Assembly: GCF_009735685.1 (NCBI RefSeq)
Contig: NZ_WHPN01000014.1
Span: forward strand, 1 to 36,302
Length of the DNA stretch: 36,302 nt
Reading direction: 5' to 3'
Origin: Streptomyces lycii
GTDB lineage: Bacteria; Actinomycetota; Actinomycetes; Streptomycetales; Streptomycetaceae
Position 1 is the first letter of the stretch. Each line of letters begins with the position of its first letter. The translations under genes were made by a program, and so were the position numbers. Shown here one piece after another: positions 10,141-19,285 of this stretch. The notes beneath the pieces were generated by a model, which saw nothing but the letters and a program-made list of their open reading frames with translations, made no database searches and was not told the origin of the DNA.

Positions 10141-10363
10141 GAACGGCCGCGCGGGAACCCGTGGCGAAACGCCCCCCGGGACACGCCCGCCGGGGACAGC
10201 CCTCCGGGGACACGCCCCGGCGGCCCGGCGCGGCGACCGGTGTGGTGCGGCGCCCCCGGGGCCCGGCGGCAGAACGCCCGGTCCGGGGAGGCGGGTCCGG
10301 GGCCCGGTCGGCTCCCGTTCCCGTCCGGGTCTCCGCGGTGGTCCGGCCGCCCGGGGAGAGGCG

Positions 10364-14639: not shown

Positions 14640-14835
14640 GGGCACCAGGCTGTCAGCCAGGGAGCCCGGCCCGCCATTGAATACTCGCTCCCCGGTACGG
14701 AAGGGCGGCTGCCCGCGTCCCGCGTTCGTCAGCTACGGACGGGCCGCGGGCCCCGGGCGGCGGAACGGGACCGGAGGGCCGGCCCCGCGGCGGGAAACCG
14801 CGTCGTGCCGGGTCCGGGGAGCTGGCGCGGCGGAC

Positions 14836-14880
14836 CGTCCAGTCACCGTCCAATGGACGTCCAGTCCCGCCGCATAGCTT
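14836..14880 (+). promoter_or_regulatory. SARP-like promoter: three 11-bp direct repeats and a -10 box
   Basis: CGTCCAGTCAC, CGTCCAATGGA and CGTCCAGTCCC are abutting 11-bp units (14836-14868), followed 8-10 bases later by TAGCTT (14875-14880). Heptamer repeats at 11-bp spacing placed about 8 bases before the -10 are the known SARP binding layout; PhoP boxes (GTTCACC units) share the 11-bp period. The next gene downstream is at 14963, and a SARP gene follows at 16097. The central GTCCAATGGAC is also a small palindrome. The rest of the 323-bp gap 14640-14962 shows no gene. Confidence 0.62.
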
Positions 14881-14962
14881 GTGGCCGTCAGCGGTGGCCG
14901 GGGCTGCGACCACGCCGGAGTGCCTCTGCCACGTCACACGCTCATCGGAGGGGGAAGAATCC

Positions 14963-15829
14963 ATGAAATCGGGGATCAAGAGGAGAACCGCCGCGGCGGT
15001 CACCGTGATGTCCGCCGTGACGGCGCTCGTCGTGGCGTCGCCGGGCAACAGCTCGGCCGTCCCGGCCGCCGACAGTCTGCGCGCGTACGGAATCTCGGCG
15101 GACGGCACGCTGATGGCCACGTTCACCACCGACCGGCCCCAGGTGCTCGACTGGGTCAGGACCGTCACCGGGCTCAGCGGTGACGCCTCCTTGGCCGGGA
15201 TCGACTTCCGCGTGCAGGACAAGACCCTGTACGGCGTCGGCGACAAGGGGGGCATCTACACGATCACGATGCCGCCGGTGACCGAGGACGTGGTGGTCAA
15301 GAAGGTCTCCCAGCTCGAAGTCGTGCTGTACGGCACGAACTTCGGGGTCGACTTCAACCCCGCGGCCGACCGGCTCCGGGTGATCAGCGACAACGGCCAG
15401 AACCTGCGGCACAACCTCGCCGACCACAGCACGATCGAGGACACGACGCTCACCACGCCGCCCGCCACCGGGCCGGCCAAGGGCGTCACCGCCGCCGCGT
15501 ACACCAACAACGACCTCAACGCGGACACCGCCACCACCCTCTTCGACATCAACACGACCACGGACCAGAACGTCATCCAGTCGCCGGCCAACGAGGGCAA
15601 GCTCGCCGCTACCGGTGCGCTCGGCGTGGACGCCGCCGCCAACGCGGGCTTCGACATCTTCAGCGACCTGACCAGCGGCAAGACGACGTCCGTGACCGGC
15701 TTCGCGGCACTCGGGAACGGCTCGGTGTCCAAGCTGTACACCGTCAACCTGTTCACCGGAGCCACCGCCGCCGTGGGGCAGTTCCCGCTGAACATCACCG
15801 ACATAGCCGTAGCACTCGACACGAACTGA
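14963..15829 (+). CDS. Secreted DUF4394 domain protein
   Basis: A 288-residue exported protein. Its signal peptide is MKSGIKRRTAAAVTVMSAVT, then ALVVASPGNSSAVPAAD. The mature part fits DUF4394: LRAYGISADGTLMATFTTDR, ASLAGIDFRVQDKTLYGVGD, GTNFGVDFNPAADRLRVISD, NGQNLRHNLAD, VTAAAYTNNDL and ending FPLNITDIAVALD. The family is predicted to form a beta-propeller-like fold; no catalytic role is known to me. The ATG at 14963 has GGAGGGGGAAG upstream. It has its own terminator and is preceded by SARP-type repeats, so it is a candidate direct target of the SARP gene that follows. Confidence 0.88.
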   Translation: MKSGIKRRTAAAVTVMSAVTALVVASPGNSSAVPAADSLRAYGISADGTLMATFTTDRPQVLDWVRTVTGLSGDASLAGIDFRVQDKTLYGVGDKGGIYTITMPPVTEDVVVKKVSQLEVVLYGTNFGVDFNPAADRLRVISDNGQNLRHNLADHSTIEDTTLTTPPATGPAKGVTAAAYTNNDLNADTATTLFDINTTTDQNVIQSPANEGKLAATGALGVDAAANAGFDIFSDLTSGKTTSVTGFAALGNGSVSKLYTVNLFTGATAAVGQFPLNITDIAVALDTN

Positions 15830-15854
15830 CGCGTCCGCGCACCTGCCGGCCATC

Positions 15855-15891
15855 GGTGAGCCCGCCCCGCATCCCCGGGGGCGGGCTCGCC
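15855..15891 (+). terminator. Terminator after the DUF4394 gene
   Basis: Stem GAGCCCGCCCC / GGGGCGGGCTC (perfect 11 bp, 9-base loop), extended by a T-G wobble and two more pairs to 14 bp. It begins 25 bases after the stop at 15829 and separates the gene from the regulator. Confidence 0.8.
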
Positions 15892-16096
15892 GCCGTCGGC
15901 TGCCGCCCGCCCGCCGCACACCCGGCACGACACGCCCCCCGGCCCCCGCCCGCTGGCTACCATGGCTCCGAAGAGCGGTCGGAAGAGCGGCATGCCGCCG
16001 CCGGTGCCGTCCGGCGGCCGGGCGGCTTCGGCACACGGCTGGGGACACCGCGGGGCCGCCTTCCGCGCACGGCAGTGTGCCGAGGGGGGACGCGCC

Positions 16097-19000
16097 ATGC
16101 ACGTGCAGGTCCTGGGCCCGTTGGAAGTCCGGCGCGGCGACGCCCGGATCGAACTCGGTACACCGCAGCAGCGTGCCGTGCTCGGCCTGCTGCTGCTGGC
16201 GGGCGGCCGTCCGCTGTCGCGCGCCGAACTGGCCGACACCCTGTGGGGCGACAGACAGCCGCGCAGCGCCGCCAATCTGATCCAGACCTATGTGAAGCGA
16301 TTACGCCACCTGCTGGAGCCCGGCCGTCCCTCGCGCACCGCGAGTACGGTCCTGCCGCGCCTGGGGGAGTGCTACGCGCTGCGGCTGCCCGGGGACGAGG
16401 TCGACCTGCCGCGCTTCCGGCGGCTGGCCGCAGAGGCCGAGGCCGCGCACCGGGAGCGCGACCCGAGCCGGGTGGCGGCGCTGCTGGGTGAGGCACTGGG
16501 CATGTGGCAGGGCCCGCCCCTCGCCGACCTGCCGTTCCTCGCCACCCATCCGGCGCTGGTCGCGCTGACCCGGGAGCGGCGGGCCGCGGTCGCCCGGTAC
16601 GGGGAGGCGCTGATCGCGGCGGGCGGCGCCGGAGAGGCGCTGTCCGTGCTGGCCGAGGCGGCGGCCGAACAGCCGCTGGACGAGGGCGCGCAGGCCCGGC
16701 TGGTGCGGGCGTACGCCGCGGCCGGCCGGCGCGACCTGGCGTTCGCCGCCTGTCTGGACACCCGCCGCAGGCTCGCCGACGAGCTAGGTGTCGACCCCGG
16801 TCCCGAGCTGACGGCCGCGTACACGGAGCTGCTGCGGGAGCCGGACGGCGTGCCGGCCGGCCTCCGCGGACCGGGCCCCGGCCGCGGCGCGCACCCGTCT
16901 CCGGCGCCCGGCCCGCCGGACTCTCGGACACCCGGCCCGCCGGGATCTCCGGCTCCGGGCGCGCCGGGGTCTCAGGCACCCGCGCCACCGCCCGCTCCGG
17001 ATCCCGGCCCGGCCGGCCCGTGGCCCGATCCGCCGCCCCCGCGCCCGGTACCCGCGCAACTGCCCGCCGACGTCTACGGCTTCTCCGGCCGGACCGCGGA
17101 ACTGCAGGCGCTCGACGACTCGTTCCCGGCGGGAGAACCGCCGGCGGACGGCCCCGCCGCCCTGGCCGTCCGGGTGATCTCCGGCACCGCGGGGGCGGGC
17201 AAGACCGCCCTCGCGGTGCACTGGGCGCACCGGGCGCGCGACCGGTTCCCCGACGGCCAGCTCTACGTCGACCTGCGCGGCTACGACCTGGACCGGCCGA
17301 TGCCCTGGGCCGACGCCCTCACCGGATTCCTCCGCGCACTCGGGCTGCGCGGGGCGCACATCCCCCTGGACCCGGACGAGCGCGCCGGCCGGTATCGCAC
17401 CGAGACGGCCGGCCGCCGCATGCTGGTCGTCCTGGACAACGCCCTGTCGGTGGAGCAGGTCCGGCCGCTGCTGCCGGGCTCACCGTCCTGTGCCGTCCTG
17501 GTGACCAGCCGGGACCGTCTCGCCGGGCTGGTGGCGCTGAACGGCGCCCGGCGGCTCGGCCTCGGACCGCTGCCGCCCGGCGAGGCGGTCGCGCTGCTGG
17601 GCCTGCTCGTCGGGGAGCGGGCCGGCACGGACCCGGCGGCCTGCGCCGCTCTGGCCGAGCAGTGCGCGCGGCTGCCGCTGGCCCTGCGCGTGGTCGCCGA
17701 ACTGGCCGTGTCCCGCCCGGGGGTGGCACTCCGTGAACTGGTGGCGGAACTCGGCGACCTGCGGCGCCGGCTGGACCTGCTGGACGTGGGCGGGGATCCG
17801 CGCGCCGCCGTACGGACGGTGTTCTCCTGGTCGTACCGGCAGCTGCCGGTGGCCGCGGCCCGTGTCTTCCGGCTGCTGTCCCTGCATCCGGGACCCGATT
17901 TCGGTGTTCCCGCCACCGCGGCCCTGACCGGGGAGAGCGAGGAGGACGCGGCCCGCGCGCTGGACGGGCTGACGCGCGCTCACCTGGTCCGCTCCCCGCG
18001 CCCCGGCCGGTTCGCCCTGCACGACCTGCTGCGGGCCTACGCCGACGGCCTCTCGCACGGGCACGACGGGGAGGACAGCCGCCGCCGGGCACGCACCCGC
18101 CTGTTCGACCAATGCCTGGCCGGCGCCACGGCCGCGATGGACCAGCTGTACCCGGCCGAACGCCACCACCGTCCGCCCACTCCGGGCTCCCCGCCCACTC
18201 CGGCCACTCCGGCCACCTCGCCCACTCCGGCCACCTCGCCCCCGGCCCCGGTGCGGGACGCCGCGGCGGCGCGGGCCTGGCTGGACGCGGAGCTGCCGGT
18301 CCTGGGCTCGCTGTGCGCCGCGGCGGCGGACGGGCCCCTTCCGGAACAGGCCGTCCGGCTGGCGGCCGTCCTCTACCGCCATCTCGACGGCGGCCGGCAC
18401 GCCGAAGGGCTCTCCTTCCACAGCCACGCGCTGCGCGCCGCCGAGCGGGCCGGGGACCTCGCCGGGCAGGCCCACGCCCTGACGAATCTGGGCGCCGTGC
18501 ACTGGCGCCTCGGCGAGCACCGGTCCGCCGAGGAGCACCTGCGGCGGGCCCTGGACCTGCACGAGAGGACGGACGACCTCGCGGGCCAGGCGCGGACCCT
18601 CTCCAACCTCGGCAACGTCCACTGGCGCGTCGGCGGCCACGCATCCGCCGCCGACTGCCAGCGGCGCGCGCTGACGCTGTACGAACGCGTCGGCGACCAG
18701 GTCGGCCGGGCCCGCACGCTGACCAACCTCGGCAACGTCTGCCTCCGGCAGGGGGAACTGGACACGGCGGCCACCCACCAGCGCGGGGCACTGGCCCTCC
18801 AGGAGATGACCGGTGACCGGGTCGGCCGGGCCCGCACCCTGGTGTTCCTCGGCACCGTCCGGCTGCGCCAGGGCCGCACCGAGGACGCCGCTCGCCATCT
18901 CCACCAGGCCCTGGGGCTGTTCCGCGAGCTGGGGCACCACGGCGGCGAGGCGTACGCCCTGACCGGTCTCGGTGACGTCTGCCTGCGGCAGGGGCGCTAC

Positions 19001-19285
19001 GACCTGGCCGCGGAGCACCACCGGCGGGCGCTGCGGCTGTTCGGCGCCACCGGCGAGCGCTACGGCGAGGCGGCCGCCCTCAACGGGCTGGGTGAGGCGC
19101 TGTGCGGCGCCGGACGGTACGCGGAGGCGCTGACGCGGCACGTCGGGGCCGGTGCGGTAGCCATCGCCACCGGGGAGCGCGACGAACAGGCGCGCGCCCG
19201 TGCGGGCGCTGTCCGCGCCCGGGTACAGGCGGCCGGCGGCGACACGTCCGTACCGGTGTTCACACCCCCGCAGATCAGCAACTGA
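16097..19285 (+). CDS. AfsR-like SARP regulator (BTAD, NB-ARC, TPR)
   Basis: A 1062-residue regulator. Residues 1-90 form an OmpR-like winged helix (MHVQVLGPLEVRRGDARIEL, AANLIQTYVKRLRHLL). The BTAD follows to about 250 (FRRLAAEAEAAHRERDPSRV, ADELGVDPGPELTAAYTELL). A Pro/Gly/Ala-rich linker leads to an NB-ARC ATPase from about 325: YGFSGRTAELQAL, Walker A GTAGAGKT (363-370), Walker B RMLVVLDNAL, sensor LVTSRDRLAGL, and LPLALRVVAELA. A second Pro/Thr linker (about 690-718) precedes six or so TPRs of 40 residues (about 785-1030; ALTNLGAVHWRLGEHRSAEE and the like). The start at 16097 has GAGGGGGGA 7 bases upstream; an earlier in-frame ATG at 15962 would add 45 unrelated residues. Proteins of this plan activate secondary-metabolite or developmental genes, but no biosynthetic cluster lies in the window. 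Confidence 0.95.
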   Translation: MHVQVLGPLEVRRGDARIELGTPQQRAVLGLLLLAGGRPLSRAELADTLWGDRQPRSAANLIQTYVKRLRHLLEPGRPSRTASTVLPRLGECYALRLPGDEVDLPRFRRLAAEAEAAHRERDPSRVAALLGEALGMWQGPPLADLPFLATHPALVALTRERRAAVARYGEALIAAGGAGEALSVLAEAAAEQPLDEGAQARLVRAYAAAGRRDLAFAACLDTRRRLADELGVDPGPELTAAYTELLREPDGVPAGLRGPGPGRGAHPSPAPGPPDSRTPGPPGSPAPGAPGSQAPAPPPAPDPGPAGPWPDPPPPRPVPAQLPADVYGFSGRTAELQALDDSFPAGEPPADGPAALAVRVISGTAGAGKTALAVHWAHRARDRFPDGQLYVDLRGYDLDRPMPWADALTGFLRALGLRGAHIPLDPDERAGRYRTETAGRRMLVVLDNALSVEQVRPLLPGSPSCAVLVTSRDRLAGLVALNGARRLGLGPLPPGEAVALLGLLVGERAGTDPAACAALAEQCARLPLALRVVAELAVSRPGVALRELVAELGDLRRRLDLLDVGGDPRAAVRTVFSWSYRQLPVAAARVFRLLSLHPGPDFGVPATAALTGESEEDAARALDGLTRAHLVRSPRPGRFALHDLLRAYADGLSHGHDGEDSRRRARTRLFDQCLAGATAAMDQLYPAERHHRPPTPGSPPTPATPATSPTPATSPPAPVRDAAAARAWLDAELPVLGSLCAAAADGPLPEQAVRLAAVLYRHLDGGRHAEGLSFHSHALRAAERAGDLAGQAHALTNLGAVHWRLGEHRSAEEHLRRALDLHERTDDLAGQARTLSNLGNVHWRVGGHASAADCQRRALTLYERVGDQVGRARTLTNLGNVCLRQGELDTAATHQRGALALQEMTGDRVGRARTLVFLGTVRLRQGRTEDAARHLHQALGLFRELGHHGGEAYALTGLGDVCLRQGRYDLAAEHHRRALRLFGATGERYGEAAALNGLGEALCGAGRYAEALTRHVGAGAVAIATGERDEQARARAGAVRARVQAAGGDTSVPVFTPPQISN

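Follow-up and report, generated by a model that had tools for sequence, protein, structure and literature searches.

Which regulator reads the SARP-type box that lies ahead of a DUF4394 gene in Streptomyces lycii, and what does the box control? The locus lies in a stretch of 36,302 nucleotides (contig NZ_WHPN01000014.1, positions 1 to 36,302; hereafter the window), in which the box is followed by the DUF4394 gene and then by the gene for a large SARP. SARP-type regulators are best known for the control of antibiotic production, and those of the large type, with NB-ARC and TPR parts, are commonly taken as pointers to such control. The box is read here, at a probability of roughly 0.83, as an operator-promoter at which the AfsR-type SARP encoded next door would directly activate the DUF4394 gene, whose product is likely secreted; this reading draws on sequence comparison and on analogy with AfsR.

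The box consists of three abutting 11-bp repeats on the plus strand: repeat 1 (CGTCCAGTCAC, 14836..14846, register -51 to -41), repeat 2 (CGTCCAATGGA, 14847..14857, register -40 to -30) and repeat 3 (CGTCCAGTCCC, 14858..14868, register -29 to -19). Six bases (GCCGCA) separate repeat 3 from the predicted -10 hexamer TAGCTT (14875..14880), and transcription is predicted to start at about 14887. The first-pass annotation had placed the hexamer 8-10 bases beyond the repeats; the positions were confirmed, and the distance from the last heptamer is 10 bases. In the alignment of relatives, which also covers repeat 2, repeat 1 is the most variable of the three and repeat 3 is well conserved. The layout typical of SARP-family operators, with 11-bp direct repeats at constant spacing from a -10 hexamer, was found in the window and in the 15 listed DUF4394 promoters, all 15 of which have a 6-bp gap between repeat 3 and the hexamer and T at position 3 of repeats 2 and 3. 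A scan of 14640-16200 gave no match to a sigma-70-type promoter, and Rfam gave no match at gathering scores. The triple heptamer pattern, with up to three mismatches allowed, occurs once in the window, where it is free of mismatches (shuffle mean 0.02). The genome-wide repeat search that the first-pass annotation had proposed returned three matches to the exact two-copy pattern in the entire 7.65-Mb genome, two of which are the window box. The third (C191) was rejected as a further box; it runs antisense within a long ORF, which we read as kinase-like, and lacks a suitably spaced -10 hexamer.

The gene behind the box (14963..15829, plus strand, 288 aa) is preceded by GGAGGGGGAAG and encodes a member of the DUF4394 family (PF14339, E 8.7e-70; 235.1 bits against a gathering score of 29.6, with profile positions 2-230 of 230 covered). 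The earlier description of it as a secreted DUF4394 protein holds for the family, and secretion is likely from the N terminus, which was read by eye, without a predictor, as a probable Sec signal peptide. An AlphaFold2 model (mean pLDDT 79.8, with residues 1-34 unreliable) is nearly all beta, and its best Foldseek matches are YWTD propellers such as LRP6 (TM ~0.5), so the modelled fold is likely a beta-propeller, of unsure blade number. A sequence search found no relative among solved structures. Between the DUF4394 and SARP genes lies a GC-rich hairpin (15854..15892, plus strand; fold of -39.9 kcal/mol for 15850-15910, z -2.8) that is possibly a terminator lacking a T run; a scan for T-run terminators found none. 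A similar inverted repeat is visible at a second Streptomyces locus (L040).

The SARP gene (16097..19285, plus strand, 1062 aa) encodes the predicted reader of the box. Its frame is open from 15962 and relatives align from the ATG at 16097, to which the start was moved. The first-pass annotation had called the product a SARP/NB-ARC/TPR regulator, a description that stands for the OmpR-type DNA-binding domain (Trans_reg_C, 37.2 bits, cut-off 26.2), the BTAD domain that follows it (99.9 bits, cut-off 22.1) and the TPR part behind the SARP domains (TPR_12, 131.1 bits). The NB-ARC part is below threshold in Pfam (19.4 bits, cut-off 23.5), yet phmmer, which matched the AfsR structures 8k60 and 8jke, gave 249 bits to 8k60 over residues 319-1008. 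The protein thus has the architecture of a large AfsR-like SARP. It is not an AfsR equivalog (NF053617), scoring 471.7 bits against a cut-off of 1430. The genome holds 17 BTAD matches; the next most similar SARP in it shares 41% identity. No relative of the SARP was found on viral contigs.

The closest described system is AfsR and its target afsS in S. coelicolor (structures 8hvr, 8jke and 8k60), in which, according to PMC10936776, two SARP protomers occupy repeats at -40 to -30 and -29 to -19 with sigma region 4 atop them. The same source reports that AfsR R92 contacts the T at position 3, that changing this T abolishes AfsR binding, and that ATP relieves the inhibition of AfsR by its NOD and TPR. 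The window shares with this system the SARP + NOD + TPR architecture, the retained recognition threonine, the T at position 3 and 11-bp direct repeats that overlap the -35 position, repeats 2 and 3 being the counterparts of the upstream and downstream afs box repeats. It differs in its core (CGTCCAG versus CGTTYAT), in having three repeats, in the Lys at the position of AfsR S91, in the regulator falling outside the AfsR equivalogs and in a target that is a likely secreted DUF4394 protein and not AfsS. Since repeats 2 and 3 stand at the AfsR register, with TAGCTT at -12 to -7, and the T at position 3 is invariant, the box can be interpreted by analogy as an operator of the AfsR type that differs in base preference (CGTCCAG versus CGTT(T/C)AT). 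Two adjacent SARP protomers would then occupy repeats 2 and 3, with a third on repeat 1, and would keep sigma region 4 and RNA polymerase in place at a promoter that has a -10 hexamer without a sigma-70-type -35/-10 match, as AfsR does at afsS. By further analogy with AfsR, the SARP would be held inactive by its NB-ARC and TPR part until some signal permits ATP binding. The heptamer triplet with 4-bp spacers also resembles the operators of PimR-type SARP-LAL regulators, for which PMC5930380 gives two heptamers as the minimum for binding; that source describes for PimR a different heptamer (CGGCAAG), a LuxR-type C-terminal half and a polyene pathway regulator as the target.

Within Streptomyces, DUF4394 is present in 73 of 295 sampled genomes. 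The best 40 of 92 DUF4394 places besides the window were inspected, together with G184 (two of the places), and SARP candidates were taken as the best 8 per genome in genome-wide scoring. A SARP with 54-69% identity to that of the window adjoins DUF4394 in 4 of these best 40 places, as it does in the window itself, and a box search of 392 genomes added G300 (L082), which has the pair, and G184 (L081). All six Streptomyces DUF4394-SARP pairs carry the box. With at most two mismatches allowed, this stringent box was found in 7 of the 392 genomes, ahead of DUF4394 in every case and beside a SARP of the clade described below in 6 of the 7; the reversed-pattern control gave 0. A sample of the class yielded the stringent box in 1 of 394 genomes, the window genome itself, which speaks for specificity of the box; alternatively, variants outside the genus escape the stringent pattern, or genomes with such variants were not drawn. 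The pair occurs in three gene orders, namely DUF4394 then SARP (the window, L040), SARP then DUF4394 (L034, L064) and convergent, tail to tail (L061, L082), and the box lies ahead of DUF4394 in each. A tblastn comparison of six window frames that flank the pair with 15 other loci carrying the pair or the box (flanks of some kb) returned a single partial match of 32%, and the pair and its box therefore look like a conserved unit and not like part of a longer syntenic block. In two further genomes (G069, G213) a DUF4394 gene (L046, L060) lacks the box and a clade SARP is encoded elsewhere, which fits local control.

In G184 the box is kept (L081, 6153-6706, minus strand), DUF4394 lies in broken pieces, and no SARP is nearby; no clade SARP was found in that genome, where the best SARP is 36% identical. 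The locus looks like a decaying module. Most unlinked DUF4394 genes (those with no clade SARP within the sequence inspected, mostly 6 kb on either side, with L035 and L070 ending early at contig edges) have a different upstream region. A conserved stretch matching one pattern (TTTGTCA..GCGCA) was found at 24 of 36 such loci, and L042, L044, L045 and most other unlinked loci show TTTGTCACAGTGCGCAAA ... CGCTTGTGGAGG ... CTTAATG about 100-250 bp upstream, where linked loci have the box. The unlinked Streptomyces genes thus seem, from these upstream sequences, to be wired to another regulator. Other SARPs of about 27-36% identity lie near two of them (L056, L059).

The pairing also occurs in other genera. 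When GTDB contigs were scanned with an alignment built from seven SARPs and the best 79 loci were retained, DUF4394 was found close to the SARP in Amycolatopsis (L122, L123, L128), Lentzea (L120, L121, L127), Umezawaea (L112), Actinophytocola (L139), Actinoplanes (L093) and Streptomyces sp. NRRL WC-3626 (L091). Among the loci listed there are 18 SARP-linked DUF4394 genes from 15 distinct genomes and three families. The plain pattern GTCCA-N6-GTCCA, followed by TAnnnT at the right distance and within 300 bp upstream, was found at 17 of these 18 and at none of 36 unlinked genes. The corresponding Fisher p of 4e-13 overstates the association, since the linked copies cluster on the DUF4394 tree (2 changes) and are not 18 independent events. 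The first-pass annotation had proposed that a failure of the repeats to be conserved among relatives keeping the gene pair would count against a SARP box; they are conserved, and its suggestion that DUF4394 is a direct, local target of the SARP gains support from this co-distribution. The one exception is in Actinoplanes (L093), where the DUF4394 box is degenerate at the same register (score 1.5, under the control 95% point of 2.2) and a perfect triple box precedes a CBM2 gene. In Lentzea, two tandem DUF4394 genes lie downstream of the SARP, and a separate box precedes each of them (L120, 14471 and 15414; L121, 13593 and 14541; L127, 13503 and 14450).

A box matrix was trained on 15 of the sites reported here (covering 12 of the 19 clade loci that pass), so that only held-out sites and the plain pattern count as tests. 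Held-out DUF4394 sites scored 52 (L112), 30 (L139) and 48 (L081) against a control maximum of 8.5 over 252 reversed strands. Of the 26 clade loci among those listed, 19 exceeded this maximum (12 training, 7 held out), as did 1 of the 50 outsiders (L104, 9.3), presumably by chance.

The clade itself was defined on a midpoint-rooted tree of 76 DNA-binding/BTAD sequences from the loci listed, 26 in the clade and 50 outside it; the duplicates L091 (= G131) and L131 (= G213) and 11 loci without a 200-residue DNA-binding/BTAD match, L090 included, were left out. All box carriers except L104 fall into this one clade of 26 SARPs among the matches listed (support 100/100), which spans Streptomycetaceae, Pseudonocardiaceae, Micromonosporaceae and Streptosporangiaceae, the Streptosporangiaceae members having only weak boxes. 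The position of AfsR S91 is Lys or Arg in all 26 clade members (Lys in the window) and in none of the 14 outsiders inspected of the 50 on the tree. AfsR T88 is retained in 25 of 26 members, and the R92 position is Arg in 5, among them the window, and His in 21, a loss of the T-contacting residue that counts against the AfsR-like reading for most members. Clade SARPs have a distinctive recognition helix, by which they would read CGTCCAG-type repeats and control a neighbour at their own locus.

The neighbour is not always DUF4394. Among the loci listed, the three SARPs nearest to that of the window on the tree are those of L040, which has DUF4394, and then L086 and L087 (65-70% identity), where the box precedes a short ORF and genes whose products have Asn_synthase, PqqD and Transglut_core3 domains (all three profiles run on L086, Asn_synthase alone on L087). 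Both neighbourhoods are likely lasso-peptide clusters judging by these domains, and two of the three nearest SARPs, with the same box, thus fit the earlier remark that such a regulator normally serves metabolite clusters. L086 and L090 encode a 42-aa precursor-like peptide, and L087 shows a similar start. The likely lasso-peptide genes lie at 10805-15437 in L086, at 14164-16232 in L087 and at about 6953 on the minus strand in L090, with the box directly before the precursor-like ORF. The SARPs of L086 and L087 group with those of the window and L040 (100/97) within a set of eight (96/93), the remaining six of which are all linked to DUF4394. Within this set the target appears to have changed while the box stayed, in a direction that the midpoint-rooted tree does not settle.

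Held-out boxes at the same register precede the lasso-precursor-like ORFs of L086, L087 and L090 (scores 15-16), the CBM2 protein of L093 (20.9), an aminotransferase in L089 (20.7) and a 247-aa protein with a signal-like N terminus in L094 (10.4). The box is absent or weak in 7 of the 26 listed clade loci: none was found in the sequence inspected for L092, L095 and L118, and at the other four loci there are weak candidates, ahead of genes for a NucA/NucB-like protein in L109 (its Pfam score falling under the cut-off), for proteins whose N termini look signal-like in L088 and L124, and for a PucR-type regulator in L113. The L113 regulator and the L089 enzyme are not secreted. The L124 candidate (9966, minus strand) is a variant, CGACCAGTCGG CGACCAGTCGC with TAACGT at the same register, and may reflect a changed base preference of its SARP. 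Taken across the clade, the arrangement probably represents a SARP switch that acts locally, in which the box was kept during evolution while the target, in most cases a likely secreted product, was exchanged.

Other explanations for the box were considered. It could be read by a global regulator of 11-bp repeats, PhoP or AfsR itself, with the neighbouring SARP incidental. Both proteins are described as recognizing the afsS direct repeats (PMC10972967), and the AfsR repeats CGTT(T/C)ATCGNN match the box at CGT in positions 1-3 and at A in position 6. Positions 4-7 differ, however (CCAG in the box, TYAT in the AfsR repeats), the same box precedes other neighbours of the same SARP clade, and in the window genome it is unique despite the 17 BTAD matches. 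PhoP and AfsR are, to our knowledge, near universal in Streptomyces, whereas the stringent box was found in 7 of 392 genomes and lies beside a clade SARP in 6 of those 7. This reading is very unlikely; PhoP as the reader, which the first-pass annotation had named as a competitor, is unlikely from the distribution of the box in the genus (7/392) and the class (1/394).

The clustering of linked DUF4394 copies on their tree would also suit a promoter relic that was inherited with the gene and kept by descent, the adjacent SARP hitch-hiking without any regulation. The alignments, as read here, show the repeats retained in Streptomyces and Pseudonocardiaceae while the sequence past the -10 hexamer diverges; the gene order is altered while the pair is retained, and the box stands before unrelated genes beside the same SARP clade, all of which makes simple descent very unlikely. 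A small unrecognized biosynthetic cluster that includes DUF4394, with the SARP in its usual role, is suggested by the two of three nearest SARPs at likely lasso-peptide genes, and a short precursor ORF could go unnoticed. Against it, the nearby window frames with Pfam matches encode a mycothiol-type enzyme, a hydrolase-like protein, a CPBP protease and a GNAT enzyme, the six flanking frames are essentially absent from other pair loci, and the Lentzea boxes precede two successive DUF4394 genes; such a cluster is very unlikely. The preferred reading remains direct control of DUF4394 by the adjacent SARP.

As in the antibiotic and RiPP clusters described in PMC12224297 and PMC10972967, the activator gene adjoins its presumed target, and clade relatives (L086, L087, L090) sit at likely lasso-peptide genes; the window differs in that its target is a single gene without sign of biosynthesis. 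PMC12224297 takes small SARPs that lie outside clusters to mark clusters that were missed, and the present clade of large SARPs offers another reading. At about even odds, the clade has left antibiotic control and become a set of portable local switches for exported products, in which the helix would read the CGTCCAG triplet and the gene behind the box would be swapped (a DUF4394 propeller, a lasso peptide, a CBM2 protein, perhaps a nuclease-like protein) while regulator and operator are kept. If so, the clade would provide a natural SARP recognition code and a way to find SARP targets from sequence. In four actinobacterial families a likely operator and a target, mostly of a likely secreted family, can be named in this manner, and a box that is kept while its target changes makes a natural set for the study of SARP DNA recognition. 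With a definite regulator, box and target to work on, the locus also offers a way into the function of DUF4394 and the signal that an NB-ARC/TPR activator senses. In the literature searched, whose coverage excluded most subscription papers and all bioRxiv preprints, no paper on DUF4394 was found. The SARP-DUF4394 pairing was likewise not found there (broader searches being judged by titles and abstract starts), in keeping with the earlier remark that it is not a described system, and a search for CGTCCA with SARP and Streptomyces gave nothing on the subject by titles and abstract starts.

Autoregulation of the SARP was also considered and rejected, as no complete box with the orientation of the gene was found upstream of the SARP gene in five loci inspected. 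L034 has a partial box about 110 bp upstream of its SARP, with two repeats 22 bp apart on the opposite strand. At the same locus a second triple repeat without a good -10 (7424-7392, minus strand) lies between the SARP and the DUF4394 promoter, and the SARP frame at 10357 stops early, at residue 549, with similarity continuing in another frame. Upstream of the SARP start, L061, L064 and L034 share a conserved stretch (CTTCCGGACATG and its neighbours), which is perhaps a control site of the SARP itself.
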